Under the pieces are notes generated by a model that was not told the DNA's origin, did no database searches, and worked only from the letters and a program-made list of their open reading frames with translations. Below, piece by piece: positions 31,617 through 58,638 of a stretch of DNA of 64,000 nucleotides. Every line of letters begins with the position of its first letter. Within the stretch, counting starts at the first letter, position 1. Source of the DNA: Pseudomonadota bacterium. Lineage in GTDB: Bacteria > Pseudomonadota > Gammaproteobacteria > Burkholderiales > Burkholderiaceae_C. The DNA lies in the NCBI GenBank assembly GCA_021808445.1, contig JAKBBP010000003.1:44442-108441 (forward strand), in the 5' to 3' direction. Made by a program: the position numbers and the translations under genes.

Positions 31617-33434
31617 ATGACTGGACTCCGAGTTGTTCGATCCCTGGCGCGCAGCCGGGACGCGCGGCGCGTGCGACGCGCAGGCATGAACCTGGCCATG
31701 GGTCTCGCGCTGGGCGCCATGCTGCTGATCTGTGGTGGCGCCGCCGCGCATGCCGAGGAGCCCGCGCCGGCGGCGGGTCCAGGCTATGACGATCCTGTCG
31801 CCTATCGCATGACGCCGGACGCCAGCCTGGCTCGATCCGCGGCGAGGCAGGCCGCGGCCGTGACCCGGCACGGCATCACGCTGTCCGGGCGGCGCCTGCG
31901 CTACACCGCCACCGCGGGGCACCTGCTGGTGCGCCAGCCGGGCGACCCGTCGAAGGTCGAGGCGGCGCTGTACTACGTGGCCTATACCCTGGACGGACAG
32001 GATCCGGCGCGGCGGCCGATCACCTTTTTCTGGAACGGCGGGCCGGGAAGTTCCAGCATCTACCTGGACCTCGGCGGCTGGGGCCCCAGGACCCTGGACA
32101 TCGACGAGGCGCGCATTCCGATGGCCACGCTGGCCCGATCGCCCCGCTTCGCGCTGCGCGCCAATCGACAGACCCTGTTGGCCGACACGGACATGGTGTT
32201 CGTCGACGCCATCGGAACGGGGTGGTCGGAAGCCGTCGCGCCGTACCGCAACCGCGACTTCGAGGGCGTGGATGCCGATGCCCGGCTGATGCGCGACTTC
32301 GTCATCGACTACCTGCGGGACAACGGACGCACGATGTCGCCGAAGTACCTGTATGGCGAGTCCTACGGGGGCATCCGGACCCCCATCGTCGCACGCCTGC
32401 TGGAGCAGTACGGAGCGCTGGCCCGCGGCGCACCCGTGCTGAACGGGCTGATCATGAATTCGCCGATCCTGGACTACAAGACCAACTGCTACATGCGCTG
32501 GTACTCGGACCAGCGGCCCCTGGCGCGATTGCCGGGCGGGGACATCGCCTTCACGCGCGCGCCCGTGTCCTGCGAGGGCTACGTCCCCAGCTACGTGATG
32601 GTGCATTACGCGCAGAGCCGACCCGACGCGACCGTGGACCAGGGGCGGCGCGCCGCGCGGCGCGCCATCGCCCTGGCGCGCGAGTCCTGGAGGCCGGAGT
32701 GGCGTGCGTACCGAGCCACGCTGGCGTCGACTCACTGGCCGCTTCCCTATGTGCCCGGTGACTTCGGGCCGGCCCAGCAGCGCGTGTTCGCGCGCCTAGG
32801 AGCCGCCACGGGCCTGCGCCCTTCCGCGTGGGCAAGGGACTTCAACATGAACGTGCCGGATTTCGACTCGGCCTTGCTGGGACTGGATGCCGCGCATTGG
32901 GACCGCGCCTGGTCCAGGGTCGATCGCTACGACGCGATGGTGCGCCTGCCTGCCCGACTGAGCGGCTATGTCAACCCCAACGGGCGCTGGGAACGCTGGG
33001 TGGCGGGCTCGGACTACCTGGACGGCAGCGTACTGCGCGCAGAGCGCAATTTCACGTCGAAGTTCCTGGACTACCACGACCCGAGCCCCTACGTGGTCGA
33101 CCGCTGGCCGGCGCATTGGGACTGGCATCACGCCGGCGACCTCAGCAATCACCCCCAGTCGGTGTCGGATCTGTACGAGGCGATGACCCTGAACCCGACG
33201 CTGCGGGTGCTGATCGCGCAGGGCGAGCAGGACACCGCGGCGCCTTTCTACCAGACCATGCTCGACCTGCGCGCAGGAGGCCTGGGAACGAAACTCCGGG
33301 TGCACCTGTATCCGGGTGGGCACATGCTCTACCTGACGCAGCCGTCGCATGCGCTGTTCAAGGCGCGCCTGGATCGCTTCTATGCGCAGGCCCAGGCGCC
33401 GGGCCCTGCAAGCGCCGGCGCGAGCGGCCGTTGA
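31617..33434 (+). CDS. Exported S10 family serine carboxypeptidase, copy 1
   Basis: Alpha/beta-hydrolase carboxypeptidase of 605 residues. Motifs are the oxyanion region 'FFWNGGPGSSSIYLDLGG', nucleophile 'YGESYGGIRTPIVA', acid 'IAQGEQDTAAPF' and catalytic His 'YPGGHMLYLT'. A signal peptide ending 'GGAAAHA' directs it to the periplasm or outside; an ATG at 31686 that starts nearer the hydrophobic core is an alternative start. S10 enzymes usually act at acid pH and remove C-terminal residues. A second paralogue lies directly downstream, with an EF-hand gene after it. Confidence 0.88.
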   Translation: MTGLRVVRSLARSRDARRVRRAGMNLAMGLALGAMLLICGGAAAHAEEPAPAAGPGYDDPVAYRMTPDASLARSAARQAAAVTRHGITLSGRRLRYTATAGHLLVRQPGDPSKVEAALYYVAYTLDGQDPARRPITFFWNGGPGSSSIYLDLGGWGPRTLDIDEARIPMATLARSPRFALRANRQTLLADTDMVFVDAIGTGWSEAVAPYRNRDFEGVDADARLMRDFVIDYLRDNGRTMSPKYLYGESYGGIRTPIVARLLEQYGALARGAPVLNGLIMNSPILDYKTNCYMRWYSDQRPLARLPGGDIAFTRAPVSCEGYVPSYVMVHYAQSRPDATVDQGRRAARRAIALARESWRPEWRAYRATLASTHWPLPYVPGDFGPAQQRVFARLGAATGLRPSAWARDFNMNVPDFDSALLGLDAAHWDRAWSRVDRYDAMVRLPARLSGYVNPNGRWERWVAGSDYLDGSVLRAERNFTSKFLDYHDPSPYVVDRWPAHWDWHHAGDLSNHPQSVSDLYEAMTLNPTLRVLIAQGEQDTAAPFYQTMLDLRAGGLGTKLRVHLYPGGHMLYLTQPSHALFKARLDRFYAQAQAPGPASAGASGR

Positions 33435-33613: not shown

Positions 33614-35473
33614 ATGCTCAGATTCCGTCATGGCGCGCCGCCGCACCGGCCCGCGCAGTCTTTGCTCCCTCTTCGACAGCCCGGCCTCGCGCGCCGCGTG
33701 CTGGCCTGGCGCCGGTGCGCCGTGGTCGTGGCCGCCGCGGCGCTCAGCGCCTGCGGCGGAGGCGGGCAGGGCGCGGGCCCGCACGTCACCGCCTATCACG
33801 CCTACGACGACCCTGTCCCCTACGATCTGCGCGCCGGGGCATCGCTGCCCGCGGCCTTCGCGAAGGCGGGGGCTGCCGTCACGCACCACGACCTGATGCT
33901 GGCGGGCCAGCAGAGGTCCTACACGGCGACGGCAGGGCACCTGCTGGTGCATTCGCGCCGGACGGGCAAGGTCGTGGCAACCATGTTCTACGTGGCCTAT
34001 ACCCTGGATGGCCAGCCTGCCGCGAAGCGGCCGGTGACCTTTTTCTGGAACGGCGGCCCGGGAAGTTCGGCGGTGTATCTCGAACTGGGGGCCTGGGGCC
34101 CGCGCACCCTGGAACTCGACGAGGCGAACGTGCCGGAGTCCGCGCTGGGCAGGCCTCCGGCGCTCAAGCTGCGGACCAACCCCGACACCCTGCTGGGCGA
34201 CACCGACATGGTGTTCGTCGATCCGGTCGGCACCGGCCTGTCGGAAGCGGTGGCTCCGCGCACCAACCAGTCCTTCGCCGGCGTCGACCCCGATGCCCGT
34301 GCGGTGCTCGACTTCATCGATGCCTGGCTGCATGCCAACCACCGCGAGATGTCGCCCAAGTTCGTGTACGGGGAGTCCTACGGCGGGATCCGCACCCCCA
34401 TCGTCGCCAGGCTGATGGAGCAGCAGGGACCCCTGGCCCACGGCGCGCCGGTGCTCAGCGGGGTGCTCATGAACTCGCCCATCATGGACTTCAAGACCAA
34501 TTGCGATTCGGCCTGGAGCTCCGTCGGCAATCCCGTGCAACAAGGGCCCTCCCAGACCTTGGCCTTCACGGTGCCTCCCGTGTCCTGCGAGGGCGACATT
34601 CCCAGTTTCGTCATGGCGCATTACGCGCTGACCCATCGAGCCACCACCGTCGCGCAGGACGCGCGCGCGGCCCGTCAGGCCATGCAACTTGCGCAAGGCA
34701 CATGGGCGCCGGAATTCAAGGCCTACCAGGCCACCGTCGGCGCAAGCGGCTTCGCCAAGGCCCACCCGGTGCCCTGGGTGGCCAGCGACTTTCCGGCGAA
34801 CCAGCAACAGGTGTTCCAGGCCATGGCCCAGGCCACCGGCACGCGAGCCGACGACTGGGCGCGGGTGTTCAACATGAACATCGAGGACTACGGCTCGGCC
34901 ATGCTGCGCCTGGACAATGCCCACTGGGATCAGGAGGACTTTCGCATCAATCCCTACGATGCGATCGTGACCACTCCGGCGCATGCCAGCGGCTACGTGA
35001 ACTTCAACGGCAAGCCGGAGACACCGCCCCAGGCCGCAGACTATTTCAACAAGGCCCTCGTGGCCGCGCAGCGTCGCTACTTCTCCAGGTTCCTGCAGTA
35101 CCAGAGCGCGGCGCCCTACGAACTGCTCAGCCCGCGCCAGATCGAGTACTGGAACTGGCACCATGACGGCGACCTGAGCAACCAGCCGCAGACGGTGAGC
35201 GACCTGATGGAGGCCATCGACCTGGGCGGGCATCTGCCGGTGCTGATCGGGCAGGGAGAAGAGGATCTGATCACCCCGTTTTTCCAGACCCTGCTGGACC
35301 TGCACAGCGCCAGGCTGGGCCGCGAGGTCGAATTCCGCGTGTTCCCCGGCGGGCACATGCTGTACCTGACCCGCGTGACCCACGACGCCTTCAAGACCAC
35401 CCTGGACCACTTCTATGCGCGTGTCGCGAACGGTACCTGGTCCCCCGACAAGCCCACGAGGATCTTCCGATGA
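33614..35473 (+). CDS. S10 family serine carboxypeptidase, copy 2 (lipoprotein)
   Basis: Product of 619 residues, clearly homologous along its length to copy 1, with 'FFWNGGPGSSAVYLELGAWG', 'YGESYGGIRTPIVARLME', 'IGQGEEDLITPF' and 'FPGGHMLYLT'. The long N-terminal segment ends in a lipobox ('AAALSAC' followed by a glycine run), so this copy should be lipid-anchored, unlike copy 1. That difference suggests division of labour in envelope proteolysis rather than simple redundancy. Its stop overlaps the EF-hand gene (ATGA). Confidence 0.87.
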   Translation: MLRFRHGAPPHRPAQSLLPLRQPGLARRVLAWRRCAVVVAAAALSACGGGGQGAGPHVTAYHAYDDPVPYDLRAGASLPAAFAKAGAAVTHHDLMLAGQQRSYTATAGHLLVHSRRTGKVVATMFYVAYTLDGQPAAKRPVTFFWNGGPGSSAVYLELGAWGPRTLELDEANVPESALGRPPALKLRTNPDTLLGDTDMVFVDPVGTGLSEAVAPRTNQSFAGVDPDARAVLDFIDAWLHANHREMSPKFVYGESYGGIRTPIVARLMEQQGPLAHGAPVLSGVLMNSPIMDFKTNCDSAWSSVGNPVQQGPSQTLAFTVPPVSCEGDIPSFVMAHYALTHRATTVAQDARAARQAMQLAQGTWAPEFKAYQATVGASGFAKAHPVPWVASDFPANQQQVFQAMAQATGTRADDWARVFNMNIEDYGSAMLRLDNAHWDQEDFRINPYDAIVTTPAHASGYVNFNGKPETPPQAADYFNKALVAAQRRYFSRFLQYQSAAPYELLSPRQIEYWNWHHDGDLSNQPQTVSDLMEAIDLGGHLPVLIGQGEEDLITPFFQTLLDLHSARLGREVEFRVFPGGHMLYLTRVTHDAFKTTLDHFYARVANGTWSPDKPTRIFR

Positions 35474-35925: not shown

Positions 35926-37218
35926 TCAGCCTGCGAAGGCGGCCCAGGCCAGCGAGAGCAGCATGCTGGCGGCCAGCCAGGCGGCGGCCGGCAGCATGTC
36001 GCGTCGGCGTGACAGGCCGAGCGCATAGGCGGCCTTGAGCAGGTTGTTGCTGCCCGAGGCAATCAGCACCGCGTGGATCACCGCGGAGGCGTCGACCTGG
36101 AAGTGTCCGGCCAGCAGCGACAGCACGAAGGGATCGATGTCGCTGAGACCGACCACGAAGCTGAGCACGTTCAGGCCGCCGACCCCGAAACGGGTGGTGA
36201 CGAAGGCGGTGAGCGCGGCGAACACCACGAACAGGACCGCGAACAGCAGGGCCACGGGAAGGTCCAGCGGGTTGCGCGGTGCCAGGCGGGCGGACGCCGC
36301 GGCCGTGCCGGCGCCGGCCTCGACATCCGTGCCCGCGGCGCGGCGCCACAGCAGCCAGGTCACTCCCAGGCTGAGCGCGCACAGCAGGCCGAAGGGCAGG
36401 GCCAGTCGCAGGGCAGCGTCCAGATGCCCCAGCGCGGCGATCACCACCCACAGTCGCAGGTACATCATGGCCGTGGCCAGCACCGTGGCCGCCGGCGCCT
36501 GCGCGGCCAGCAAGTCGTCCTGGCGTGCCTGGCGCGCCAGCACCACCGTCGCCGCGGTGCTGGAGTAGACCCCTCCGAGCAGGCCGGTCAGCAGCGTGGA
36601 GCCGCGCGGAAACACGTAGGTGTGGGCCAGGTAGCCGGCGTAGGAGATGGCCGAGATCAGCACCACGGCCAGCCAGACCTTGGAATAACTGATGGTGCTC
36701 AGCCCCGGGATCGGCGTGTCGGGAAGCAGCGGCAGCACCAGCCCCGCGATGATCAGGAACTTGGCCAGCGTGACTCCCTCGGACACCGGCATGGCGTCCG
36801 AGATCTTGCGGATCAGCGGCTTTTCCGCGAGCATGAGAATGGCCACGATCAGCACGGCGGCGACCAGCCAGGGCGGCTGGGTCTGGATCAGCGGGCCCAG
36901 CGCATAGGCGAGCAGGGCGATCATGCCCGGCAGCAGTTCGCCGCCGGCGCCCCCGTCGCGCCCGGCGCGCGCCAGGTCCACCGCCAGCCACACCGCCAGG
37001 GCGGCCAGTCCGACCAGGTAGAGTCCACGCGGCCGGGTTCCGTCGAGCAGCCAGAGCACGAAACCCGCGGCACCGATCAGGGTCAGGGTGCGCGTGGTGC
37101 CGAAGCCCACGCCTTCGTCCTGCGCACGCCTGTAGCTGTGCAGTTCCAGCCCCAGCACGAAAGCCAGCGCGGCGCTTGCCGCGAACTGCAGCAGAAGGGG
37201 GGGAAGACCCGGGTTCAT
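35926..37218 (-). CDS. MgtC/SapB-DUF4010 family membrane protein
   Basis: Product of 430 residues with about 12 predicted membrane helices. The N-terminal third is MgtC-like ('AASAALAFVLGLELHSYRRA', 'GFGTTRTLTLIGAAGFVLWL') and the C-terminal part is DUF4010 ('FVVGLSDIDPFVLSLLAGHF', 'VLIASGSNNLLKAAYALGLS'). Function is unknown; metal or small-ion transport is often suggested. The ATG at 37218 overlaps the stop of the FadR-type regulator (ATGA), so the two are one transcription unit. Confidence 0.87.
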   Translation of the reverse strand: MNPGLPPLLLQFAASAALAFVLGLELHSYRRAQDEGVGFGTTRTLTLIGAAGFVLWLLDGTRPRGLYLVGLAALAVWLAVDLARAGRDGGAGGELLPGMIALLAYALGPLIQTQPPWLVAAVLIVAILMLAEKPLIRKISDAMPVSEGVTLAKFLIIAGLVLPLLPDTPIPGLSTISYSKVWLAVVLISAISYAGYLAHTYVFPRGSTLLTGLLGGVYSSTAATVVLARQARQDDLLAAQAPAATVLATAMMYLRLWVVIAALGHLDAALRLALPFGLLCALSLGVTWLLWRRAAGTDVEAGAGTAAASARLAPRNPLDLPVALLFAVLFVVFAALTAFVTTRFGVGGLNVLSFVVGLSDIDPFVLSLLAGHFQVDASAVIHAVLIASGSNNLLKAAYALGLSRRRDMLPAAAWLAASMLLSLAWAAFAG

Positions 37219-37934
37219 TCGAGGCGCCGGCGGGTGTCCGCCAGCAGGCGCCGCATGCGCATGAACGCGGTGCGCTGATCCTGTTCGCGGATGGCCTGGA
37301 ACACGCGCAGGTGGTCGTCGAGGGCCTGTTTGAAGGTGTCGGCGCGGCGCGCCGACACGCCCAGCAGCATGCCCAGCGCCGAGCCGATCACGGAGGACAG
37401 GGGAATCAGCAGATCATTGTGCGTGGCCTCGAGCACGGCGACGTGGAATTGCAGGTCGGCCTCGACCCATTGCTCGACCACCTGGGAATCGCGCATGGCC
37501 TCGCAGGCACGTTCCATGGCGCGGACGTCCTCCGCGCTGCGGTTGCGTGCGGCGAGCATGCAGGCATTGGGCTCGATGATCTCCCGGATCTCTCCCAGCT
37601 GGCGCAGCATGTCGCCGCCCGGGTCGGCCGCGCAACGCCAGGCCAGCACCTCGGGGTCGAGCATGTTCCAGGACGACACCGGCTGCACGCGGGTGCCGAT
37701 GCGCGGGCGCGCCTTGAGCAGGCCCTTGGCCGCCAGCACCTTCACCGCCTCGCGCAATGCCGTGCGGCTGACTCCGAGCTCCTGGCCCAGCACCTCCTCG
37801 CTGGGCAGGGTGCTTCCGGCGGGGTAGCCGCCGCCCACGATGCGCTCGCCCAGGCGCTGCACGACCTGCCGGTGCAGCGCGGGTCCCGCCGAGCCACCCT
37901 GGGCCGGACGCGGGACGGAAGGGGTGTTGGTCAT
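37215..37934 (-). CDS. GntR family regulator, FadR subfamily (DgoR-like)
   Basis: Product of 239 residues. An N-terminal winged helix ('LPSEEVLGQELGVSRTALRE', about 40-65) is followed by an FCD ligand domain with its metal/ligand residues ('EADLQFHVAVLEATHNDLL', 'ALDDHLRVFQAIREQDQ'). It is divergent from genes for 2-keto-3-deoxygalactonate kinase and aldolase, so it most likely senses galactonate or its dehydration product and represses that pathway. A 14-base element at its own promoter recurs exactly at the dehydratase promoter near 53.1 kb. The start ATG 37934 gives a normal FadR length; the track's 1141-residue frame is spurious. Confidence 0.9.
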   Translation of the reverse strand: MTNTPSVPRPAQGGSAGPALHRQVVQRLGERIVGGGYPAGSTLPSEEVLGQELGVSRTALREAVKVLAAKGLLKARPRIGTRVQPVSSWNMLDPEVLAWRCAADPGGDMLRQLGEIREIIEPNACMLAARNRSAEDVRAMERACEAMRDSQVVEQWVEADLQFHVAVLEATHNDLLIPLSSVIGSALGMLLGVSARRADTFKQALDDHLRVFQAIREQDQRTAFMRMRRLLADTRRRLE

Positions 37935-37957
37935 GGCGTCGAAAGCGTTGTCGAATA

Positions 37958-37971
37958 TTGTATGATGATTG
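37958..37971 (+). promoter_or_regulatory. Regulon element TTGTATGATGATTG, copy 1 (regulator / kinase promoter)
   Basis: This AT-rich 14-mer lies between the divergent FadR-type regulator and the kinase gene and is identical to the sequence upstream of the dehydratase operon at 53122-53135. It contains TATGAT, a likely -10 for the kinase, and TACAAT on the other strand, a likely -10 for the regulator, so a protein bound here would block both directions. The binding protein is inferred to be the adjacent regulator. Confidence 0.65.
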
Positions 37972-38006
37972 AAAGGTCGCAACCATCGCCCAGCCCAGGA
38001 AACAGC

Positions 38007-38957
38007 ATGCCGCCGAGCCTCGATCGCGCGGTTCCCGTCGGCGCATCCGAGATCATCGGCATCGACTGGGGGACCACTCACCTGCGAGCTTACCGCGTTG
38101 CGCCCGACGCAAGCGTGATCGCCCGCTGCGAAAGCGACGATGGAGTGCTGCGTTCGCGCGGACGTTTCGGCCAGGTCTGCTCCTCGGTGCTCGAGCGCCT
38201 CGGCGCCCGCGCCGGCGAACTGCCGGTGATCCTGTCGGGCATGGTGGGGAGTTCGCAGGGCTGGCAGCCCGTGGACTACCTGGGCATCGACCAGCCCCTG
38301 CGCACCCTGGGCGAGCACCTGGTCACGCTGCGCGCGGACGACGCCCTGCCGCGCTGTCATCTGGTGCCCGGCTATGCGGTGATGCCGGAGCAGGCGGGCC
38401 CCGAGCAAGGCATCGATGTCATGCGTGGCGAGGAGGTGCAATTGCTGGGCGCGACGCTGCTGGATGCGGATGCGCGCAACCGCATGGTGGTGCTGCCGGG
38501 CACCCACTCCAAATGGGCGCAGGTCGGAGCCGGGCTGATCCGCTGGTTCGCCACCTACATGACCGGCGAGCTGTTCGCCTGCCTGAGCCAGCAGGGCACG
38601 CTGGGCGCCCTGATGGCGCGCAGCGAGGACTCCCCGGAAGCCTTCCGCGCCGGTGTGCGCCGCTCCGGCGAGACGCGCCTGGCCGGAGCCTTGTTCAGCT
38701 GCCGGGCCATGGTGGTCACCGGGGCCATGCCCGCCGAGCATGCGCGCGAGTACCTCAGCGGGGTGCTGATCGGCGCCGAACTGCACGAGGCCCTGGCCCG
38801 GGGCGGGCCGTCGGCGAGCAGGGTCTCGATCGTGGCCTCCAGGGCCCTGGCGCGTCGCTACCAGGACGCGGCGGCGCTGCTGGGCATCGAAGCCAGCTGC
38901 CTGGACCCGGATGCCGTCTACGTCGCCGCGCTGCGCGAGCTGGGGCGTAGCCTGTAG
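38007..38957 (+). CDS. dgoK: 2-dehydro-3-deoxygalactonokinase
   Basis: Phosphorylates 2-keto-3-deoxy-D-galactonate at the 6 position in the De Ley-Doudoroff pathway. The 316-residue product has the DgoK opening 'IIGIDWGTTHLRAYRV', 'PVILSGMVGSSQGW' and 'VVLPGTHSKWAQVGAG'. I place the start at ATG 38007, preceded by 'aggaa' at suitable distance; an earlier ATG pair at 37962/37965 falls inside the regulatory element. The KDPGal aldolase gene follows 51 bases later. Confidence 0.93.
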   Translation: MPPSLDRAVPVGASEIIGIDWGTTHLRAYRVAPDASVIARCESDDGVLRSRGRFGQVCSSVLERLGARAGELPVILSGMVGSSQGWQPVDYLGIDQPLRTLGEHLVTLRADDALPRCHLVPGYAVMPEQAGPEQGIDVMRGEEVQLLGATLLDADARNRMVVLPGTHSKWAQVGAGLIRWFATYMTGELFACLSQQGTLGALMARSEDSPEAFRAGVRRSGETRLAGALFSCRAMVVTGAMPAEHAREYLSGVLIGAELHEALARGGPSASRVSIVASRALARRYQDAAALLGIEASCLDPDAVYVAALRELGRSL

Positions 38958-39008: not shown

Positions 39009-39665
39009 ATGTCCCCTGCCGTTCCACGTCATCCCGGCCTGCCGGCCGGCGCCGTCCCCCTGGTGGCGATCCTGCGCGGCTTGCTGCCCGAACAGGCCGC
39101 TGCCGTCGGCAGCGCCTTGTTCGACGCGGGCCTGCGCTGCCTGGAGGTTCCGCTGAATCGGCCGCATGCGCTGCGCTGCATCGAGATCCTGGTGTCCATG
39201 GCGCCTGCGGACGCGCTGATCGGTGGGGGCACCATGATGAGCCTGCGTGACGTGGACGAGGTCGTCGCCGCGGGAGGCCGGTTGATGGTCTCGCCCCACT
39301 GCGACCCCGAGCTCATCGGCCATGCGGCGGAGCGTGGCATGTTCTGTGCGCCCGGCGTGGCCACCCCCAGCGAGGCCTTCCAGGCGCTTCGTGCCGGCGC
39401 GCATGCCTTGAAGCTGTTTCCGGCCGAGCAGATCGGAGCGCGCGGCCTGAAGGCGCTGTGCACCGTACTGCCCCCCGGTACCGAGGTGTGGCCGGTGGGT
39501 GGGGTGGACGAGCGGCAGATGGCCGAATGGCTGCGTGCCGGCGCGACCGGTTTCGGCATCGGCTCGCAGCTGTTCCGGCCGGGCGTGGAGGCCGCCGAGG
39601 TGGGGCTGCGTGCCGCGCGCATGCTGCGCGCCTGGCAGGAGGCCAGGCAAGGCTCGGGGGCTTGA
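39009..39665 (+). CDS. dgoA: 2-dehydro-3-deoxy-6-phosphogalactonate aldolase
   Basis: Class I aldolase of the KDPG/KDPGal family that splits 2-keto-3-deoxy-6-phosphogalactonate into pyruvate and glyceraldehyde-3-phosphate. The 218-residue product shows the catalytic Glu in 'GLRCLEVPLNRPHAL' and the Schiff-base Lys in 'GAHALKLFPAEQIG'; 'CAPGVATPSEAFQAL' is the phosphate-side loop. Adjacent dgoK fixes the pathway as galactonate rather than gluconate. The dehydratase that makes its substrate is encoded 12 kb away under the same element. Confidence 0.92.
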   Translation: MSPAVPRHPGLPAGAVPLVAILRGLLPEQAAAVGSALFDAGLRCLEVPLNRPHALRCIEILVSMAPADALIGGGTMMSLRDVDEVVAAGGRLMVSPHCDPELIGHAAERGMFCAPGVATPSEAFQALRAGAHALKLFPAEQIGARGLKALCTVLPPGTEVWPVGGVDERQMAEWLRAGATGFGIGSQLFRPGVEAAEVGLRAARMLRAWQEARQGSGA

Positions 39666-39730: not shown

Positions 39731-41239
39731 TCAGCCGGCCGGCTCGCTCCAGTCCAGCGCGCGTTGCACGGCCTGTTGCCAGCGTCGCAGCAGGCGCTCG
39801 CGCTCGGCGCCCGACATCGCGGGTTCCCAGCGCCTCTGGGCCTTCCAGTGCGAGGCCAGCTCCGTGGGGCCGCTCCACAGGCCTGCGGCCAGGCCGGCGG
39901 CGCAGGCCGCGCCCAGCGCCGTGGTCTCGCTGCATACGGGACGGATCACCGGCGTATCCAGCAAGTCGGCCTGGAATTGCATCAGCAGCGAGTTCGCGCT
40001 CATGCCGCCATCGACCTTGATCTCGCGCAAATGCATGCCGCTGTCGCGTTGCATCGCCGCCACGATTTCCTGGACCTGGAAGGCGGTGGCCTCCAGCGCC
40101 GCGCGCGCGAGGTGTCCGCGATGGGCGAAATGGGTCAGGCCCACCAGCACTCCGCGCGCATCGGGGCGCCAGTGGGGCGCGAACAGGCCGGAGAACGCGG
40201 GCACGAAGTACACGTCGCCGTTGTCGGGCACGCTGCGGGCGAGTTCCTCGATGTCCGCGGCCGAGCCGATCAATCCCAGGTTGTCGCGCAGCCAGCGCAC
40301 CAGGGATCCGGTGACGGCGATCGAACCTTCCAGTGCGTAGCATGGGGCCTGCTCGCCCAGGCGGTAGGCCACGGTGCCCAGCAGGCCGCTGGGCGAAGGC
40401 GCGGGGCGCTCTCCGGTGTGCATGAGCAGGAAGGATCCGGTGCCATACGTGACCTTGGCCTGACCCGGGGCGAAGCAGGCCTGGCCGATCAGCGCGGCCT
40501 GCTGATCGCCCGCTAGCGCGGCCAGCTCGGCGCCGCGCAGGGCACCCTCGCGAATGGGGGCGATGCGCTGCGAGGTGGAGACTACCCGGGGCAGGCAGGC
40601 CAGGGGTATGCCGAGGGACTCGCAGATCTCCTCGTCCCACCGCAGGCGGTGGATGTCGAACAGATTGGTGCGGCTGGCATTGGTGACGTCACAGACATGG
40701 CTCCCGCCATCGGGTCCGCCGGTGAGGTTCCACGCCAGCCAGGCGTCGACGGTGCCGAACAGCAGCTCGCCGCGCGCAGCTGCCTGTGCGGCCCCGGGAT
40801 GCTGGCGCAGCATCCATTGCAGTTTGCAGGCGGAGAAGTAGTTGGCCGGGGGCAGGCCCGTTCGATCGCGCCAGCCCTGCGGGCCGACGCGCTGCACCAC
40901 CTCGCGTACCAGGGAGTCGGTGCGGGTGTCCTGCCAGACGATGGCATGGCCCAGCGCGCGCCCGCTCGCGCGTTCCCACAGCACGGCGGTCTCGCGCTGA
41001 TTGGCGATGCCCACCGCGGCGAGCTGGCGAGCCTCGATTCCCGCCTCGCGCAGCGCCTGCGCAGCCAGGTCCTGCACGTTGCGCAGGATCTCCGCGGGGT
41101 CGTGCTCCACCCAGCCGGGCTGGGGGCAGATCTGGCGGTGCTCGCGCTGCGCCGTCGCCACCACGCCCAGCGCCGCGTCGAACACCATGACGCGCGAGCT
41201 GGTGGTGCCCTGGTCGATGGCTGCCACATAGGTGTTCAC
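39731..41239 (-). CDS. glpK: Glycerol kinase
   Basis: ATP-dependent phosphorylation of glycerol to sn-glycerol-3-phosphate. The 502-residue FGGY kinase shows 'AIDQGTTSSRVMVFDAALG', 'GVDGGMSANSLLMQFQADLL'-type C-terminal signature and 'GTGSFLLMHTG'. The start is a GTG at 41239 that overlaps the glpD stop (GTGA) with an AGGAG site; the track start is in upstream sequence. It is the last gene of the long minus-strand galactoside operon, so glycerol is probably released from the imported substrate. Confidence 0.95.
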   Translation of the reverse strand: MNTYVAAIDQGTTSSRVMVFDAALGVVATAQREHRQICPQPGWVEHDPAEILRNVQDLAAQALREAGIEARQLAAVGIANQRETAVLWERASGRALGHAIVWQDTRTDSLVREVVQRVGPQGWRDRTGLPPANYFSACKLQWMLRQHPGAAQAAARGELLFGTVDAWLAWNLTGGPDGGSHVCDVTNASRTNLFDIHRLRWDEEICESLGIPLACLPRVVSTSQRIAPIREGALRGAELAALAGDQQAALIGQACFAPGQAKVTYGTGSFLLMHTGERPAPSPSGLLGTVAYRLGEQAPCYALEGSIAVTGSLVRWLRDNLGLIGSAADIEELARSVPDNGDVYFVPAFSGLFAPHWRPDARGVLVGLTHFAHRGHLARAALEATAFQVQEIVAAMQRDSGMHLREIKVDGGMSANSLLMQFQADLLDTPVIRPVCSETTALGAACAAGLAAGLWSGPTELASHWKAQRRWEPAMSGAERERLLRRWQQAVQRALDWSEPAG

Positions 41240-42810
41240 TGCGAATCTCCTGATCCTGCGGTCGTGCCCGGGCGGGCGCGACGGCGCTGGAACCATGCGT
41301 CGACCGCGTCGCATTGCGCAGGGCTCGTGTGCAGCCCGCACTTGCTGCGGCGCCACAGGAAATCCTCCGCGCCGCACGCCCATTCCTGATCCGCAGCGTA
41401 TTCCAGCTCGGCCTCGAACACCCCGGGGGCGATCTCGGCGCCCAGGTCGCCCGGGCCGCGGGCCGCGCCCAGCCAGCGATGCAGCCGGGTTCCGTAGGCG
41501 CGCGCCACGCGCCGGCGCATGGGCGCCGGCATCCACCCATGGCGGGCCGCCAGGGCCTGCTCGAAGTCGGCCAGATCGGTGGGCCCGGCACTCGCGCGCC
41601 CGAGTTCGGCGTACAGGTCTCCGCCGGGGAGCACGGTGCGGGCGGTCCAGGCGCCGCGCCTGCAGTCCAGCAGCGCGGCCAGGCGGTCCGCCGCCTGTTC
41701 GGCCAGCAGCCGATAGGTGGTGATCTTGCCGCCCCAGACGTTGAGCAGCGGGGCGCCGGCCTCGTCGAGCTCGAGCCGGTAGTCGCGCGTCACCGCGGAG
41801 GGGTCGCCGCTCTGGTCATCGAGCAGGGGACGTACCCCGGAGTAGCTCCAGACCACGTCTGCGCGGCCCAGGGGTACGGCGAAGTAGCGGGTCACGCTCT
41901 CGCACAGATAATCGATTTCCTGCTCGCTGATGCGCGGGGCGCCGGGATCCTGGTCGAAGCTCACGTCGGTGGTGCCGATGAGCAGGTGCTCCTCGCCGTA
42001 GGGGATCACGAACACGATGCGTCGATCGGGGTTCTGCAGCAGCCAGGCGCAGCGCATGGGCGCCCAGCGGCGCACCACCACGTGCGAGCCCTTGACCAGG
42101 CGGGGACGGCGCGGGGCCGCCGCGCCGGCGGCCTGCGCGATCTGCCCGGCCCAGGGACCGGCCGCGTTGACCAGGCTGCGCGCACGAAGCGGGAAGCTGC
42201 CATGCTCGCCATGGAGCTCGGCCTGCCAGATGCCGGATTCGCGGCGCAGCGAGCCCACCCGCGTGCGCGTGAGTACGCGCGCGCCGCGCTCGGCTGCGTC
42301 GAGGGCATTGAGCACGACCAGGCGGGCGTCATCCACCCAGCCGTCCGAGTAGGCGAAGCCCTGGCGCCACTGCGGGCGCAGGGAGCAGCCGGACGCCTCG
42401 CCCTGCAGGTCCACCATGCGTGAGCCGGGCAGCCAGCGTCGCCGCGCCAGATGGTCGTACAGCCACAGCCCGGCTCGCAGGGTCCACACCGAGCGCAGCC
42501 GCGGGTCGTGGGGCACGATGAAGCGCATGGGCCACATGATGTGCGGCGCGCTGGCGAGCAGCACCTCGCGCTCCTGCAGGGCCTTTCGCACCAGCGAGAA
42601 TTCGTGGAATTCGAGGTAGCGCAGGCCCCCGTGGATCAACTTGGTCGAGGCCGAGGAGGTGTGCTCGGCCAGGTCGTGCTGTTCGCTGAGCACGACGCGC
42701 AGCCCCCTCCCGGCGAGGTCGCGGGCGATGCCGCAGCCGTTGACCCCGCCGCCCACGACCAGCACGTCCCAGGGCTCGCCCAGGTCCCTCGCTCCCATGT
42801 CAGGCGTCAT
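41236..42810 (-). CDS. glpD: Aerobic glycerol-3-phosphate dehydrogenase
   Basis: Membrane-associated flavoenzyme oxidising glycerol-3-phosphate to DHAP and reducing quinone, 524 residues. The FAD loop 'VLVVGGGVNGCGIARDLAGR', 'TSSASTKLIHGGLRYLE' and the DAO C-terminal domain ('FLWRRSKCGLH') are typical. The ATG at 42810 has a strong site (GGAGG) and lies 22 bases after the alpha-galactosidase stop; glpK overlaps its own end. No glpF or glpR is next to it, unlike ordinary glycerol operons, which points to an internal glycerol source. Confidence 0.95.
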   Translation of the reverse strand: MTPDMGARDLGEPWDVLVVGGGVNGCGIARDLAGRGLRVVLSEQHDLAEHTSSASTKLIHGGLRYLEFHEFSLVRKALQEREVLLASAPHIMWPMRFIVPHDPRLRSVWTLRAGLWLYDHLARRRWLPGSRMVDLQGEASGCSLRPQWRQGFAYSDGWVDDARLVVLNALDAAERGARVLTRTRVGSLRRESGIWQAELHGEHGSFPLRARSLVNAAGPWAGQIAQAAGAAAPRRPRLVKGSHVVVRRWAPMRCAWLLQNPDRRIVFVIPYGEEHLLIGTTDVSFDQDPGAPRISEQEIDYLCESVTRYFAVPLGRADVVWSYSGVRPLLDDQSGDPSAVTRDYRLELDEAGAPLLNVWGGKITTYRLLAEQAADRLAALLDCRRGAWTARTVLPGGDLYAELGRASAGPTDLADFEQALAARHGWMPAPMRRRVARAYGTRLHRWLGAARGPGDLGAEIAPGVFEAELEYAADQEWACGAEDFLWRRSKCGLHTSPAQCDAVDAWFQRRRARPGTTAGSGDSQ

Positions 42811-42832: not shown

Positions 42833-44974
42833 TCATGCCCGCTCCAGCCCGAACACCAGCGCGGCCTCGGGATGCAGCGCGGGCAGGGGCAGCCCGCATT
42901 GAGCGAGTTCGTGTCCGTCGGCCAGCACCCCGGGGCCGGCAAGCGCCTGCAGCCAGCGGCTTTGCTGTTCGGCACGCTGGCGCAGCTGGCCGGCGCGGCC
43001 CAGCAGGTGCACGCGCCAGCGCCCGCTGCCGCGCAGACGCGGCAGACGCAGAGCCGCCGACTGCGGACCCGGCATCGCCTCGGGCTGGAATACGCACAGG
43101 AAATGGCGCTGCGGCGTGGACGCCAGCCACCAGCAGGCCCCGCTGGCGCTGTGCCCCTGGTCGATGTCCCCGTCGTGGATGGTCTCGCGCCATTGCTTGT
43201 ACAGGGTGATCCAGCCCCGCAGGCGGTCGCGCTCGTCGGTGCTCATCGCGCGCACGTCGGCCTCCACGCCCATATGCCCGAAACAGGCCACCGCGCAACG
43301 CAGGTCGATGCTCTGCGAACGCCCGGTGGCATGGGCGGGCGCGGGGCCCACGTGGCTGCCCAGCAACTCGGGCGGAAACAGGCGCAGCGCCCCGGACTGG
43401 ATGGCGATGCGCGAGCTGGCGTCGTTGTTGTCGCTGGTCCACAGGCGCTGGGTGTGGCGCAGGATGCCGAGGTCGGCACGCGCGCCGCCGGAGGCGCAGC
43501 TCTCGATTTCCACCCGGGGATGCGCGTCGCGCAGGCGCTCGAGCAGCGCGTACAGTGCCAGCACCTGGGCATGCATGCCGGGGCGACCGTGCGCATCCAG
43601 CGCCTGCGCGAGATCGCGGTTCATGTCCCATTTCAGGTACGAGATCGGCGTGTCGCGCAGCAGCGCATCGAGCTTGTCGAACAGGTACTGCGACACCTCG
43701 GGCCGGGCCAGGTCCAGCACCAGCTGATGGCGTCCGAATACCGGCTCGCGCCGCGCATCCCCGAGCGCCCACTGCGGATGCTCGCGATACAGGCGGCTGT
43801 CGGGGTTGACCATCTCGGGTTCGACCCACAGGCCGAATTCCATGCCCAGCGAGCGTACATGCTCGGCCAGCCCGCGCAAACCATGGGGATACTTGCGCGG
43901 GTCGGGCCACCAGTCGCCCAGGGCCGCGCGGTCGTCATTGCGGCCTTCGAACCAGCCGTCATCGAGCACGAAGCGCTCCACGCCCAGCTCGGCCGCGCGA
44001 GACGCCAGGTCGCGCAACTCGGCCTCGTCGTGACGGAAATACAGCGCTTCCCAGGTATTCAGATGCACCGGACGCGGGCGCCGCTTGCCGCCCGGCCAAC
44101 GCAGCACCTCGCGCCTGGCCAGTGCGTGCAGGCCGCGCGCGGCCGAGCCGATGCCGGCCTGGCCCAGCGCCAGGTACAGCGCCGGCACACGCAGACGCGC
44201 GCCGGGCGCCAGGCGGATTTCGCCGGGGGCGAACCACTCGCCGGCCTGCAGCAGCAGCCGGCCGTCTTCGTGGCGCTCCAGCGCGAAGCGGTGGTTGCCG
44301 CTCCAGGCCAGTTGCACGCCGATGGCCGGCCCCTGGTGCTCGCAGCTGTGGGCGCCGAGCACGAACAGTCCCGGCGGTGCCTGGTGCGAGCTGCGCCCGC
44401 GCCGGTTCTCGCGCGACCAGCCGTCGGCGCCCACGGCGCGGCGCTCCCACTGGAATTCGTTCGCCCACTCGCCGTGCGGGCAACTCACCTCGGTCAGCTC
44501 ATCGGGCAGCGCGATGCTGGCCCCGGCGAGGCGATCCACCTGCAGCTCGGTGTCGCCTCGATTGTGCAATTCGGCCTCCACGCGCAGCACGTCGGTGGCC
44601 GCATCGAGTCGCAGCTCGATGCGCAGCCCCAGCCCGGCGCAGAGGTCGCCGAGCTGCACGCTCAGGGAGTCTGGCGAGGGCTGGCTCCAGGACTCCACGC
44701 TCCAGTCGTGGATGGCGTCGAGGCCGTCGCGGTGGGCGCGCAGCAAACCATCCTGCGCGAGGCCGTTGCCATGGCCGGGCGCCAGGCGCGCGAGGCTGGG
44801 CGCGTCCATGCCCCCCTGGGGCATGGACAGCAGCTCCGAGCCGGGCCACGCGGCCAGCAGGTCCAGCGCGTCCAGGCGCGAGCCCAGATGGCGCCACACG
44901 GCAGTGCCGCCGGCGCTGAGCTCCAGCACGGCGCTGCAGGCATTGCCCTCGAGTCGCAACAGGGTCGGTGGCAT
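42833..44974 (-). CDS. Alpha-galactosidase, GH36
   Basis: Retaining alpha-galactosidase of 713 residues. An N-terminal beta-sandwich (1-310) precedes the catalytic barrel with 'VERFVLDDGWFEGRNDD', the nucleophile Asp in 'YLKWDMNRDL', 'SCASGGARADLGIL' and the acid/base Asp in 'LWTSDNNDA'. There is no signal peptide, so it works on galactosides brought in by the ABC transporter encoded just upstream. The gene starts 4 bases after the last permease gene. Natural targets include melibiose, raffinose-type sugars and galactosylglycerols; the following glpD-glpK pair favours the last. Confidence 0.93.
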   Translation of the reverse strand: MPPTLLRLEGNACSAVLELSAGGTAVWRHLGSRLDALDLLAAWPGSELLSMPQGGMDAPSLARLAPGHGNGLAQDGLLRAHRDGLDAIHDWSVESWSQPSPDSLSVQLGDLCAGLGLRIELRLDAATDVLRVEAELHNRGDTELQVDRLAGASIALPDELTEVSCPHGEWANEFQWERRAVGADGWSRENRRGRSSHQAPPGLFVLGAHSCEHQGPAIGVQLAWSGNHRFALERHEDGRLLLQAGEWFAPGEIRLAPGARLRVPALYLALGQAGIGSAARGLHALARREVLRWPGGKRRPRPVHLNTWEALYFRHDEAELRDLASRAAELGVERFVLDDGWFEGRNDDRAALGDWWPDPRKYPHGLRGLAEHVRSLGMEFGLWVEPEMVNPDSRLYREHPQWALGDARREPVFGRHQLVLDLARPEVSQYLFDKLDALLRDTPISYLKWDMNRDLAQALDAHGRPGMHAQVLALYALLERLRDAHPRVEIESCASGGARADLGILRHTQRLWTSDNNDASSRIAIQSGALRLFPPELLGSHVGPAPAHATGRSQSIDLRCAVACFGHMGVEADVRAMSTDERDRLRGWITLYKQWRETIHDGDIDQGHSASGACWWLASTPQRHFLCVFQPEAMPGPQSAALRLPRLRGSGRWRVHLLGRAGQLRQRAEQQSRWLQALAGPGVLADGHELAQCGLPLPALHPEAALVFGLERA

Positions 44975-44978: not shown

Positions 44979-45830
44979 TCAGCCCTTGGTCGCGCCGAGG
45001 GTGAGCCCGGCGATGAAGTGGCGTTGCATGGCGAAGAACATCACCACTGGCGGCAGGGCGGCCAGGATGGATCCGGCCGCCACGAGTTGCCATTGCGAGA
45101 TCCACTGGCCGTTCAGGGACATGAGGCCCCCGGTGACCGGCATGGCATGGCTGCCCTGGGTGAGCACCGTGGCCCAGAAATAGTCGTTCCAGACGAAGGT
45201 GAAGATGAGCACGGCCAGCGCAGCCATGGCCGGGCGGATCAGGGGAAGCACGATGCGCAGGAAGATGCGCAGCTCGCCGGCCCCCTCGATGCGCGCGGCC
45301 TCGATCAGCTCGCGAGGCAGATCGCGGATGAAGTTGCGCAGGAAAAAGGTGCAGAAACCGCTCTGGAAGGCGGTGTGGAACAGGGTCAGTCCCAGCGTGC
45401 TGTTGTACAGACCCAGATGCAGCGAGAGCTGGCGCACCGGCACCATGAGGATCTGGGCGGGCACGAAATTGCCCCCGACGAACAGGAAGAACACCGCCAG
45501 GTTGGCACGAAAGCGGTACACGCCGAGGGCGTAGCCGGCCAGGCTGGCCAGCGCGATGGATCCGATCACCGCCGGCACCGTGACCTCGAAGCTGTTGAGG
45601 ATGTAACGCAGCAGCGGGGTGTTGCGAAAGACCTGCAGGTAATTGCTCACCCCCTCCCACGAGGCCGGCAGGCCCCAGTAGTTGCCGGAGTTCATGTCGG
45701 CGGGGGTGCGCACCGACATCATCGCCACCGCCAGGATGGGCAGCAGCCAGATCAGCAGCAGCACCGGGATGCCGACGCGGTAGGCCCAGCGCGTGGGTGC
45801 GCGGGTCTGTTCGATGGGCGTGGGGAACAT
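44979..45830 (-). CDS. Sugar ABC transporter permease, MalG type
   Basis: Product of 283 residues with six membrane helices and the EAA loop 'ELIEAARIEGAGELRIFLRI' that contacts the ATPase. Typical CUT1 second permease for oligosaccharides ('LRYILNSFEVTVPAVIGSIA', 'WNDYFWATVLTQG'). ATG 45830 overlaps the MalF-type stop (TGATG). Confidence 0.93.
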   Translation of the reverse strand: MFPTPIEQTRAPTRWAYRVGIPVLLLIWLLPILAVAMMSVRTPADMNSGNYWGLPASWEGVSNYLQVFRNTPLLRYILNSFEVTVPAVIGSIALASLAGYALGVYRFRANLAVFFLFVGGNFVPAQILMVPVRQLSLHLGLYNSTLGLTLFHTAFQSGFCTFFLRNFIRDLPRELIEAARIEGAGELRIFLRIVLPLIRPAMAALAVLIFTFVWNDYFWATVLTQGSHAMPVTGGLMSLNGQWISQWQLVAAGSILAALPPVVMFFAMQRHFIAGLTLGATKG

Positions 45831-46747
45831 CAGGCGTTCTCCTTTTCCTGCACGTACACGCGCCGCAGCACGAACACGATGAACACCAGCATGATGAAGA
45901 ACAGCACCGTGGCGACGGCGGCGCCGTAGCCCATGCGGTAGCCATATTCGCTCAGCGCGACCTCGTACATGTAGTACGCCAGGGTGCGCGAGCTGCCGTA
46001 GGGGCCGCCCTGGGTCATGATGGAGATCATGTCGAAGCTGCGCAGCGATCCGATCACCGTGACCACCACGGCGATGAAGGTGGCGGGGCGCAGTTGCGGC
46101 AGCACCACCTTGAACAGCATGGACCACCCCTTGGCTCCTTCCAGCCGGGCGGCTTCGATGAGGTCGGTGCGTACCCCGTTGAGCCCGGTGAGGTAGAGGA
46201 TCATGCAGTAGGCGATCTGCGGATACAGCCCGGCGGCGACGATGCCGTAGGTGACCAGGTGCGAATCCGAGAGCACCGCCACCGGAGGAAGCCCGAAGGC
46301 GTGCAGCAGATGCACGAACAGTCCGGAGGTGGGGTCGTAGAACAGGGTGAAGATCAGGCCGATGACCACCTGGGAGATCACGAAGGGGAAGAAGAAGGCC
46401 GATTTCATCAGGCGCATGCCCGCAACGCTCTGGTTGAGCAGCAGGGCCAGCCCCAGGCCGATGGGCACCGAAAGCAGGTAGCCGAACAGCCAGATCAGGT
46501 TGTTGCGCAAGGCGATGAGGAAGGCCGGGTCCGAGGCCAGGCGCAGGTAGTTGGACAGTCCCACCCAGCGCGCGGCGCCGAGCCCGTCCCACTTGTACAG
46601 GCTCAGGCCCATGGACTCCACGATGGGCCCGAGCACGTAGACCGTGAACAGGAACAGGCCCGGCGCCAGGAACAGCCAGGGAGCGAGGGACATGTGGTGT
46701 CGCGCCCACCAGGATCGGCGGGGCGGCGTGGGCGTGGAGGAGGACAT
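45830..46747 (-). CDS. Sugar ABC transporter permease, MalF type
   Basis: Product of 305 residues, six helices ('PWLFLAPGLFLFTVYVLGPI', 'FFFPFVISQVVIGLIFTLFY') and the EAA loop 'DLIEAARLEGAKGWSMLFKV'. CUT1 family, without the long periplasmic loop of enteric MalF. It begins 84 bases after the binding-protein gene, with a strong hairpin in between, and overlaps the second permease gene by one base. Confidence 0.93.
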   Translation of the reverse strand: MSSSTPTPPRRSWWARHHMSLAPWLFLAPGLFLFTVYVLGPIVESMGLSLYKWDGLGAARWVGLSNYLRLASDPAFLIALRNNLIWLFGYLLSVPIGLGLALLLNQSVAGMRLMKSAFFFPFVISQVVIGLIFTLFYDPTSGLFVHLLHAFGLPPVAVLSDSHLVTYGIVAAGLYPQIAYCMILYLTGLNGVRTDLIEAARLEGAKGWSMLFKVVLPQLRPATFIAVVVTVIGSLRSFDMISIMTQGGPYGSSRTLAYYMYEVALSEYGYRMGYGAAVATVLFFIMLVFIVFVLRRVYVQEKENA

Positions 46748-46831: not shown

Positions 46832-48070
46832 TTACTGGCTGTAGACCTGCTTCTCGACCTGGTCGAGGTGCTGGAGGATGTCCTGGCGGTCCGAGGGGTT
46901 CATCAGGTAGTGCTGGAAGCCGTCCAGTCCGGCCTTGGCCATCTGCGCGGGCGCGTCGCGGTCATAGAACTGCGACAGGTCCTTGGCGTTGGACAAGAGC
47001 TTGAACCCGGCCTTCAGGAAAGGATCGTCAGGCAGCTTGGCGTTCTTGTTGGTGGGCAGTTGTCCGAGGATCGCGTTCATCTTCGACTGCACGTCCGGAC
47101 GCGCCAGGTAGGCCAGGAACTTCTCGGCGTCCGCCTTGTGCTTGGCGTGCGCGGGGATGAACACGATGTCGGTCGGCGCCTCCTCGGCGTCGGGGACCTT
47201 CGGGTTGATCACCGGGAAGGGCACGAAGCCGATCTGGGACTCCTTCAGCCCGGCCGACTTCATCACGTCCACCGCGAAGTTGCCCATCAGGTACATCGCC
47301 GCCTTGCCCTTGACCAGCAGCGGAACCGCTTCCTGCCAGGCGTAGGAGGCACTGTTGGGAATGAAATAGCCGGGCTTGGTCAGCTGATCCCAGTAGTCGA
47401 ACACCTTTTCCACGCGCGGGTCGGTGTAGGACACCTTGCCCGCCATCAGCTTCATGTGGAAGGCGTAGCCGTTGACCCGCAGGTCCAGGTAGTCGAACCA
47501 GCCGGCGGCGGGCCAGGGGGCCTTGGTGCCGATGGTGAAGGGCGTGATGCCATGGGCCTTCAGGGTCGCGCAGTCACTCAGCAGTTCCTTCCAGGTCTTC
47601 GGCGGCTGCAGGCCGAGCTTGTGGAACAGGTCCTTGCGGTAATAGATGCCCCACTGGTAATAGGTCAGAGGCAGGCCCCACTTGCGGCCATTGATGGTCA
47701 TGGACGAGGCGGAGGAGGCAAAGGCCTGGTTCCAGCCATCCTTCTGCCACAGCGGAGTGACGTCGGTGAACAGACCGTCCTTGACGAAGGGAGCCATGCG
47801 GTTGGCCGCGTACCAGGTGGCCAGGTCCGGCGGATCGGCGGAGAGGAAATTGAAGATGGCGCTCTTGTACCCCTCATGGTCGAAGGTGTTCACCTTGACG
47901 TGGATGTTGGGGTAGGCGGCCTCGAATCCCTTCACGCCGGCAGCGATCGCCGCCTTGGGTCCGGGGTCGGAATAGTCGGTGTTGAACACCAGTTCATCGG
48001 CGTGCGCTGCGGCCGCGGCGGCGCCCAGAAGGGCGGCGCCGAGCACCAGCTTGCGGGACAGGCGTGGCAT
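46832..48070 (-). CDS. ABC transporter sugar-binding protein (CUT1)
   Basis: Periplasmic solute-binding protein of 412 residues with a cleaved signal peptide ('LVLGAALLGAAAAAAHA'). The fold is MalE-like ('PDLATWYAANRMAPFVKDGL', 'WGIYYRKDLFHKLGLQPPKT', 'GKAAMYLMGNFAVDVM'). Between beta-galactosidase and permease genes, it most likely recognises a galactose-containing oligosaccharide or galactosylglycerol. The ribosome binding site is good (GAGGAGA), which fits the high expression such proteins need. Confidence 0.92.
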   Translation of the reverse strand: MPRLSRKLVLGAALLGAAAAAAHADELVFNTDYSDPGPKAAIAAGVKGFEAAYPNIHVKVNTFDHEGYKSAIFNFLSADPPDLATWYAANRMAPFVKDGLFTDVTPLWQKDGWNQAFASSASSMTINGRKWGLPLTYYQWGIYYRKDLFHKLGLQPPKTWKELLSDCATLKAHGITPFTIGTKAPWPAAGWFDYLDLRVNGYAFHMKLMAGKVSYTDPRVEKVFDYWDQLTKPGYFIPNSASYAWQEAVPLLVKGKAAMYLMGNFAVDVMKSAGLKESQIGFVPFPVINPKVPDAEEAPTDIVFIPAHAKHKADAEKFLAYLARPDVQSKMNAILGQLPTNKNAKLPDDPFLKAGFKLLSNAKDLSQFYDRDAPAQMAKAGLDGFQHYLMNPSDRQDILQHLDQVEKQVYSQ

Positions 48071-48095: not shown

Positions 48096-50108
48096 TCAAT
48101 GTGCGGAAGCCGCTGGGAGCAGCTTCCATGCGGATACGCCCCTGGGGGGCAGTTCCAGCGCGCCCAGCAGGCGCGTGGCCTCGCCTTGCGGTGGCTCCCA
48201 GCACACCGGCGAATCGGAAAAATTCAGAGCCAGCACCAGCTCGCCCACTCGGCTGATGCGCAATCCCTCGGGCAGGCGCCGCGGGACCAGCCCGGCGGAT
48301 GGCGCCACGTGTTCCAGCAGCGACACCCAGCCGGCCTGGTCGAGCCAGGCGCCCAGGTACCAGCAGTTGGCATGACGGGTCAGCGCGGCAGAGCCCTCGG
48401 CGGATCCCTCGTCCGCCCCTTGCGTGAATCGGGCCTGTACCGAGGCTCCCCGCAGCGCCAGTTGTTCGCACCAGCGGCTGGCCCGCAGGGTCGGCCCCTG
48501 CTCGCCCAGGCGCAGCGCCAGCTCCACGCCGGGGGGCAGCGAGCTCACGCGCTGGACCTGCACGCCGGCGAGCTCGGCGAACACGCCCGGTGCCAGGCTG
48601 GGCGGGATGTGCAGCTCCTCGGTCTTGGATCCGGCGCGCGGGCCCAGCAGGATCTGCGCGGAGCTTGCCCGCAGGGCGGAGGCCAGCGCGGGCTCGCCGC
48701 GCAGTTGCGAGGGCAGAAGCACCAGGGCGTAGCCCTCCAGCGACGACTGCGGCGGCAGCACGTCCACGTCCAGTCCGAGCTGGCGCGCCGCGCTGTAGGC
48801 CCGGAAGCAGGCCTCCAGCGCAAGGTAGTCGCGTCCCTGGGGCTGGATGTCGGCCATCCACAGGCTGGCGTAGTCGAACACCAGGGCGACGTCGGCGCGC
48901 CTGCGCGTGCGCGCCTCCCGCAGCTGTTCGCGCAGCCCGTCGAGCTCGCGCGCGACCTGCGCGGCTTCGATGGCTCCGAGGTCGTCGCTTGCGTCGGGGC
49001 GCTGCAGCCCGGCGTGCATCTGCTCCTGGGCATAGGGCGCCTGGCGCCAGCGGAAGTAGCTCACGATCTCCGCGCCGTGGGCCAGTGCCTGCCAGGTCCA
49101 GACGCGCACCATGCCGGGGTGGGGCGCCGGGTTCCACTGCGCCCAGTTGACCGGGCCGGGCTGCTGCTCCATCACCCACCAGCGACCGCCGCACATGCCG
49201 CGGTAGAGATCGTGGTGGAAGGCCGGAATGTCCGGGTGCCCGGTGAAGGCGTGGCGCCGCTTTTCGTCGGGGTCCAGGAAAAAGTTCTGCGTGGCACCCA
49301 GGGGGTAGGAGTCCCAGGTGGCGACGTCCAGGTCGCGGGCCAGCTTGTGGTGGTCGAACTCGGTGAAAAATCCCATGAAGTTGTGCAGCACGTCGCGGCC
49401 GGGGGAGTGACGGCGCAGGATGTCGACCTGCATGCGGTTGAACTCGATCACCTCGTCGGAGGCGAAGCGCCTCCAGTCCAGACGGTGCGAGGGATTGGCC
49501 TCGGTCACCGTCGCCGCGGGAGGGTCGATTTGCGCGAAATCGGTGTATTCCTGACTCCAGAACACCGTGCCCCAGGCCTGGTTGAGGGCCTGCACCGTGC
49601 CGTAGCGGCCTTGCAGCCATGCGCGAAAGCGCTCGCGCGCGGCCTCCGAATAACTCAGGACCGTGGAGTGGCAACCGTATTCGTTGTCGGTCTGCCAGGC
49701 ACAGACTGCGTCATGCCGTCCGTAGCGTTCGGCCATCAGCGTGATGATGCGCGCCGCCTGTTCGCGGTACACGGGGCTGGAGAAACAATAGTGCCGCCGC
49801 GAGCCGAAGCCGCGGGGGTGCCCCTGCTCGTCCAGCGCGAGGATCGAGGGATGCGCGTCCACCAGCCACTTCGGGGGCGTCGCGGTGGGCGTGCCCAGCA
49901 CCACGCGCAATCCATGGCGGTGCAGGGTGGCGAGGGCATCATCGAGCCAGTCCCAGCACAGCTCGCCGCTGCGCGGCTCGATGCGGCTCCAGGCGAACTC
50001 GCCGATGCGCACCACGCGCAGCCCGAGTTCGCGCATGTGGCTCGCGTCGCGCTCCCACAGTTCGCGGGGCCACTGCTCCGGGTAATAGCAGACACCGAGT
50101 TCGATCAT
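48096..50108 (-). CDS. Beta-galactosidase, GH42
   Basis: Retaining beta-galactosidase of 670 residues in three parts: catalytic barrel (1-390), trimerisation domain (about 395-590) and C-terminal beta domain. The acid/base Glu is in '[11 protein letters not shown]' and the nucleophile Glu in '[13 protein letters not shown]'; the N-terminal '[20 protein letters not shown]' is standard. With no signal peptide it is cytoplasmic. Finding it in the same operon as GH36 means the imported molecule probably carries both alpha- and beta-galactosyl bonds. It lies 24 bases after the ATPase gene. Confidence 0.94.
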
Positions 50109-53121: not shown

Positions 53122-53155
53122 CAATCATCATACAAATAAAGTCGTGCGCGACCAA
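53122..53155 (-). promoter_or_regulatory. Dehydratase operon promoter with regulon element copy 2
   Basis: On the minus strand TTGGTC (53155-53150), a 17-base spacer and TATGAT (53132-53127) form a reasonable promoter. The 14-mer TTGTATGATGATTG (53135-53122) overlaps the -10 and is identical to the element at 37958-37971. A repressor bound here would stop transcription of the dehydratase, transporter, galactosidase and glycerol genes. Confidence 0.65.
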
Positions 53156-57812: not shown

Positions 57813-57816
57813 GACC

Positions 57817-58638
<822 letters not shown>

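Follow-up and report, generated by a model that had tools for sequence, protein, structure and literature searches.

The window analysed here, a 64-kb stretch of DNA whose nearest relatives among public genomes are Thiomonas (Burkholderiales), carries a gene for a GntR/FadR-type regulator that is divergent from dgoK and dgoA (Table 1). Facing this pair on the opposite strand is a long co-directional series that begins with an IlvD/Edd-family dehydratase and continues through the ABC ATPase, the GH42 enzyme, the sugar-binding protein, the permeases, the GH36 enzyme, GlpD, and GlpK. A 14-base element, TTGTATGATGATTG, is found in two exact copies, one in the gap between the regulator and dgoK and the other upstream of the dehydratase. 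Copy 1 is 35 nt ahead of the ATG of dgoK (38007) and 23 nt ahead of the divergent regulator start codon (37934, - strand); copy 2 is 37 nt ahead of the dehydratase start codon (53084, - strand), and each copy has the orientation of the catabolic gene downstream of it. The dgoK-dgoA and dehydratase-to-glpK series converge, so the predicted operators lie at the outer ends of one cluster. The 15-kb spacing of the copies arises because they flank this convergent cluster; in five other members of the genus with both copies on one contig the spacing is 15.13-15.32 kb.

Table 1. Features of the locus, with positions and strands in the 64-kb window.
Feature	Position	Strand	Remarks
GntR/FadR (FCD) regulator, DgoR-like	37215-37934	-	239 aa; proposed binder
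Operator copy 1 (predicted), TTGTATGATGATTG	37958-37971	+	Regulator/dgoK divergent promoter region; conserved block about 37956-37974, TATTGTATGATGATTGAAA
TATGAT, -10-like, within copy 1	37961-37966	+	Weak -35-like TCGAAA 16 nt upstream
dgoK, 2-keto-3-deoxygalactonokinase	38007-38957	+	PF05035
dgoA, 2-dehydro-3-deoxy-6-phosphogalactonate aldolase	39009-39665	+	
GlpK, glycerol kinase	39731-41242	-	Frame from about 41239; sole copy found in draft genome
GlpD, glycerol-3-phosphate dehydrogenase	41236-42810	-	Sole copy found in draft genome
GH36 alpha-galactosidase (Melibiase)	42833-44974	-	
Two ABC permeases	44979-45830, 45830-46747	-	
Sugar-binding protein of ABC transporter	46832-48070	-	
GH42 beta-galactosidase	48096-50108	-	
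Sugar ABC transporter ATPase, MalK/UgpC type	50133-51293	-	
IlvD/Edd-family sugar-acid dehydratase	51354-53084	-	Leads long operon; proposed galactonate dehydratase
Operator copy 2 (predicted), TTGTATGATGATTG	53122-53135	-	Upstream of dehydratase operon; conserved block TTTATTTGTATGATGATT
TATGAT, -10-like, within copy 2	53127-53132	-	TTGGTC (53150-53155) 17 nt upstream

Beyond copy 2 lies a gene for an AraC-type regulator (53217-54197, - strand); only close Thiomonas relatives have it in this position, just ahead of the dehydratase operon. Divergent from it is a gene for a Gig2-like protein (PF07350; 54145-55578, + strand); the predicted starts of the two overlap, so the true start is probably later. 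A second sugar cluster (55756-60384, + strand), which by eye from the translations comprises a ribose-type ABC transporter, an RbsD/FucU-like mutarotase, and a ROK regulator, has no copy of the motif.

The preliminary description had reported an identical 14-base element at two promoters and attributed it to the adjacent FadR-type regulator, and the identity is exact: the 64-kb window has no further match to TTGTATGATGATTG at up to three mismatches, and a pattern search of the 3.38-Mb draft genome (92% complete) returned exact matches only at these two places and one extra place at up to two mismatches. The many unrelated genomic copies that had been named as an argument against an operator were thus sought genome-wide and not found.

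The regulator has an N-terminal GntR winged helix-turn-helix domain (PF00392, E=4.4e-17) and a C-terminal FCD domain (PF07729, E=1.8e-22). Its best PDB match is 7c7e (E=2.8e-30), an entry that matches Escherichia coli DgoR over its full length, and the two proteins are 33% identical. DgoR has a D146-H150-H195 metal triad, described (PMC7674646) as unlike the three-His site seen in FCD domains elsewhere; all three residues, together with R102, are invariant in the alignment. Among the other residues of the DgoR galactonate pocket, R224 is kept and S221 is replaced by T, while W181 and D184, which are implicated in galactonate binding, are not conserved, so the effector may differ.

Within Thiomonas the element and the regulator occur together. 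The regulator was called present (E below 1e-60) in 9 of 28 genomes; the first 13 bases of the element, TTGTATGATGATT, are found exactly in eight of these nine and in none of the 19 regulator-free genomes, and the ninth has a one-mismatch copy, TTGTATGATGAAT, in the same place. Thiomonas sp. FB-6 is among the genomes with orthologs of the regulator and of copy 1 (L038). At face value the Fisher probability of this distribution is about 3e-6, a figure to be read with the fact that members of a single genus lack independence; a site is inherited along with its cluster, so that the counts do not represent independent events. Across seven regulator/dgoK gaps from orthologous loci, all 14 bases and roughly three more 3' of them do not vary within diverged flanks; upstream of the dehydratase, TTTATTTGTATGATGATT is unchanged at almost all positions in eight sequences, again between diverged flanks. 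The motif is absent upstream of dehydratase paralogs (67-71% identical), both those from the same genomes and those from related genera.

The motif can be recovered from sequence outside the genus. De novo motif discovery was applied to 14 intergenic regions from seven genomes of five non-Thiomonas genera, with regulator orthologs 53-61% identical and with all Thiomonas sequence left out; the search settled on TTAATTCATCATACAAA, with one site in each of the 14 regions. Over the window the resulting matrix gives 25.6 bits for copy 1 and 22.4 bits for copy 2, and 7.9 bits for the next place; elsewhere in the genome, eight additional places that match the 13-base consensus with one mismatch score no higher than 12.0 bits. 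Regulator loci held out from six genomes have two sites each (12 of 12 expected, 14.7-26.7 bits), four of the six loci being from a genus represented in training, so that the hold-out is at genome level and not in every case at genus level. In the other genera the regulator is flanked on one side by dgoK and/or dgoA and on the other by the dehydratase, GH42, the ABC ATPase, or a pair comprising an SDR (sugar dehydrogenase-like) and a lactonase-like protein. The motif is common to at least six genera of the family; order- and class-level searches gave no further orthologs outside the family, so the comparison is limited to family members. The site occurs with the regulator and at target promoters and is absent elsewhere, and the regulator is the sole transcription factor seen to be common to the motif-bearing loci.

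Several other origins of the element can be weighed against this pattern. Repeated 14-mers are in themselves frequent in a biased sequence of 64 kb (546 pairs observed in the window, 168 in simulation), so that the repeat by itself is weak evidence and might be fortuitous. AT-rich 14-mer repeats (at least nine A/T; GC content is 70%) appear in none of 60 simulations, however, and number three in the window, one self-overlapping, one in two adjacent paralogous genes, and the third TTGTATGATGATTG; a first-order Markov model predicts 2.2e-5 copies of TTGTATGATGATTG per 64 kb and 0.0012 per genome. The view put forward earlier that chance identity is very unlikely is borne out by these figures, and with cross-genome conservation and the independent rediscovery of the motif, which refute a chance repeat, such an origin can practically be dismissed. 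(The paralogous neighbours, 31617-33434 and 33614-35473 on the + strand, share the 14-mer ACCTTTTTCTGGAA and have by eye a serine carboxypeptidase-type look.) The AraC-type regulator is a candidate binder in that its gene immediately precedes the dehydratase operon both here and in six of six close orthologs. An AraC homolog is nevertheless absent within 1.5 kb of the motif-bearing dehydratase in a diverged Thiomonas lineage (L135) and from all motif-bearing 15-20 kb loci of other genera, and copy 1 is 15 kb from the AraC gene and adjoins the FadR-type gene. The motif thus persists where the AraC gene is missing, and its assignment to the AraC-type protein was rejected as highly improbable.

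The overlap with promoter sequence requires more thought, since both copies contain the -10-like hexamer TATGAT. A weak σ70 promoter can be drawn at copy 1, and at copy 2 the TTGGTC upstream matches three of six positions of the -35 consensus, under the scan threshold; the TATGAT-bearing elements are at a plausible distance from the start codons (35 and 37 nt) and co-oriented with the genes, as would be expected if the 14-mer were merely a strong shared -10 element with no specific regulator. Against this, conservation spans a block of 17-19 bp, more than a -10 hexamer; no other promoter in the genome has the sequence; the site is missing where the regulator is missing within the genus; and among seven other genomes, six have the copy in the gap between regulator and dgo genes pointing towards the regulator and away from dgoK/dgoA. 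On these four grounds the promoter-only account was rejected, and we regard it as quite unlikely. Of the caveat entered earlier, that part of the identity could be promoter, the TATGAT overlap is real; as an explanation it falls short of a conserved block that exceeds the hexamer and of an orientation relative to dgoK that is reversed in most other genera. The simplest reading is that the 14-mer is a predicted operator set on the -10 region. Its earlier attribution to the adjacent FadR-type regulator is upheld as a prediction by co-occurrence, conservation among orthologs, rediscovery outside the genus, the held-out sites, and the exclusion of the AraC-type protein.

Comparison with characterized operators suggests that the element belongs to a known class. 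E. coli DgoR represses dgo via two promoter-overlapping inverted repeats, with D-galactonate as effector, and its IR1 contains TTGTAGTACAA (PMC12288454). The locus described here resembles that system in having a GntR/FadR protein beside dgoK and dgoA and predicted sites that overlap the promoter, and TTGTATGATGATTG resembles the E. coli operator in its TTGT half-site and GT-N3-A spacing. In other respects they differ. The second half-site of the element reads ATGA, not ACAA, its symmetry is weak, and it has an AT-rich extension. Each of two operons, 15 kb from one another, has one site, where E. coli dgo has two repeats side by side at a single operon. An IlvD/Edd-type dehydratase takes the place of DgoD, the predicted regulon adds the transporter, GH42, GH36, and glycerol genes, and two galactonate-contact residues are not conserved in the regulator. 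When the matrix is run on the E. coli dgo region the known DgoR operators are not the top matches (9.6 bits at one); hence the two motifs, though related, cannot substitute for each other.

Sites of the FadR subfamily typically have TKGT and ACMA boxes three bases apart, GT-N3-AC (PMC4494728). The element shares with them its AT-richness, the TTGT box, an A after the 3-nt spacer, and a location in a divergent intergenic region over the promoter. It departs from the consensus at one conserved base, in that the 11-bp core TTGTATGATGA has T for the C of the AC pair, as do 88% of 42 distinct sites; the window site, TTGT-ATG-ATGA, keeps the first box, the spacing, and six of the seven fixed positions of TNGTNNNACNA. 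The full consensus TTGTATGACAA (TTGT-ATG-ACAA) is found only in some relatives, e.g., L124 and L172. The matrix is only weakly self-symmetric, with r = 0.37 about the expected centre and 0.45 about a different one. The site probably works like a DgoR operator and probably belongs to the FadR-type class, its second half-site having drifted. Several FadR-type paralogs in the family that are 35-40% identical have a related TCATATGAYGATTG-like site, mostly directly upstream (L023, L020, L028, L018, and L014), which fits a motif travelling with this protein family. At L023 the site (1344-1360) lies in the gap that separates the regulator from a divergent IlvD/Edd dehydratase, and genes for a TRAP-type transporter are on the opposite side; the L023, L020, and L028 paralogs (35-39% identical) differ from the window regulator in a TCAT first half-site, and L023 also in its TRAP type of transporter. 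A literature search confined to freely accessible papers found no published DgoR-type operator in Burkholderiales and no published galactose regulation in Thiomonas.

It is very likely that the 14-mers are operators through which the DgoR-like regulator represses the two convergent operons, with repression relieved by a sugar acid. By analogy to its family, the regulator would occupy each 14-mer over the -10 region as a dimer. Bound at copy 1 it would occlude RNA polymerase at dgoK-dgoA and probably also repress its own divergent gene; bound at copy 2 it would block the operon that runs from the dehydratase through the ABC, GH42, and GH36 genes to glpD and glpK. One of the pathway's sugar acids, galactonate or 2-keto-3-deoxygalactonate, would bind the FCD domain and release the regulator, resulting in joint induction of galactoside uptake, hydrolysis, and oxidative degradation. 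The sequence comparisons establish the sites, how rare and how conserved they are, where they lie, and their association with this regulator; physical binding, the dimer, the sign of regulation, autoregulation, and release by the effector are inferred parts of this scheme. Activators exist among GntR/FadR proteins, and the regulator might bind the site as one or have a dual role. The sites are on the -10 region, however, where a bound protein normally blocks RNA polymerase, and E. coli DgoR represses from promoter-overlapping sites (PMC12288454), which makes an activating or dual role improbable. With the regulator as repressor, a single protein would very probably switch on all the genes for galactoside uptake and breakdown jointly.

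The content of the long operon may point to a substrate. Sole copies of GlpK and GlpD in an operon with GH36, GH42, and a sugar ABC transporter would suit galactosyl-glycerols (algal galactolipids or floridoside), and Thiomonas is mentioned together with the alga Euglena mutabilis in papers on acid mine drainage. It is conceivable, as a tentative proposal that we consider doubtful, that one DgoR-like repressor acting at an asymmetric, non-textbook operator controls a complete regulon for scavenging galactosyl-glycerol of the galactolipid headgroup or floridoside type: the ABC transporter would take up the compound, GH42 and GH36 would free galactose for degradation by the De Ley-Doudoroff enzymes, and the only GlpD and GlpK detected in the genome would handle the glycerol. 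No described catabolic cluster of this type for galactosylglycerol or floridoside was found in a literature search.

The predicted regulon is a solid case, new but ordinary, of a gene switch whose type is already known. Sequence alone here defines about eleven genes as a regulon, names their regulator, and provides an operator that can be tested, in acid-mine and related bacteria whose regulation of sugar use is little studied; it also shows how far a DgoR-type operator can drift from the FadR consensus yet stay with the same pathway.
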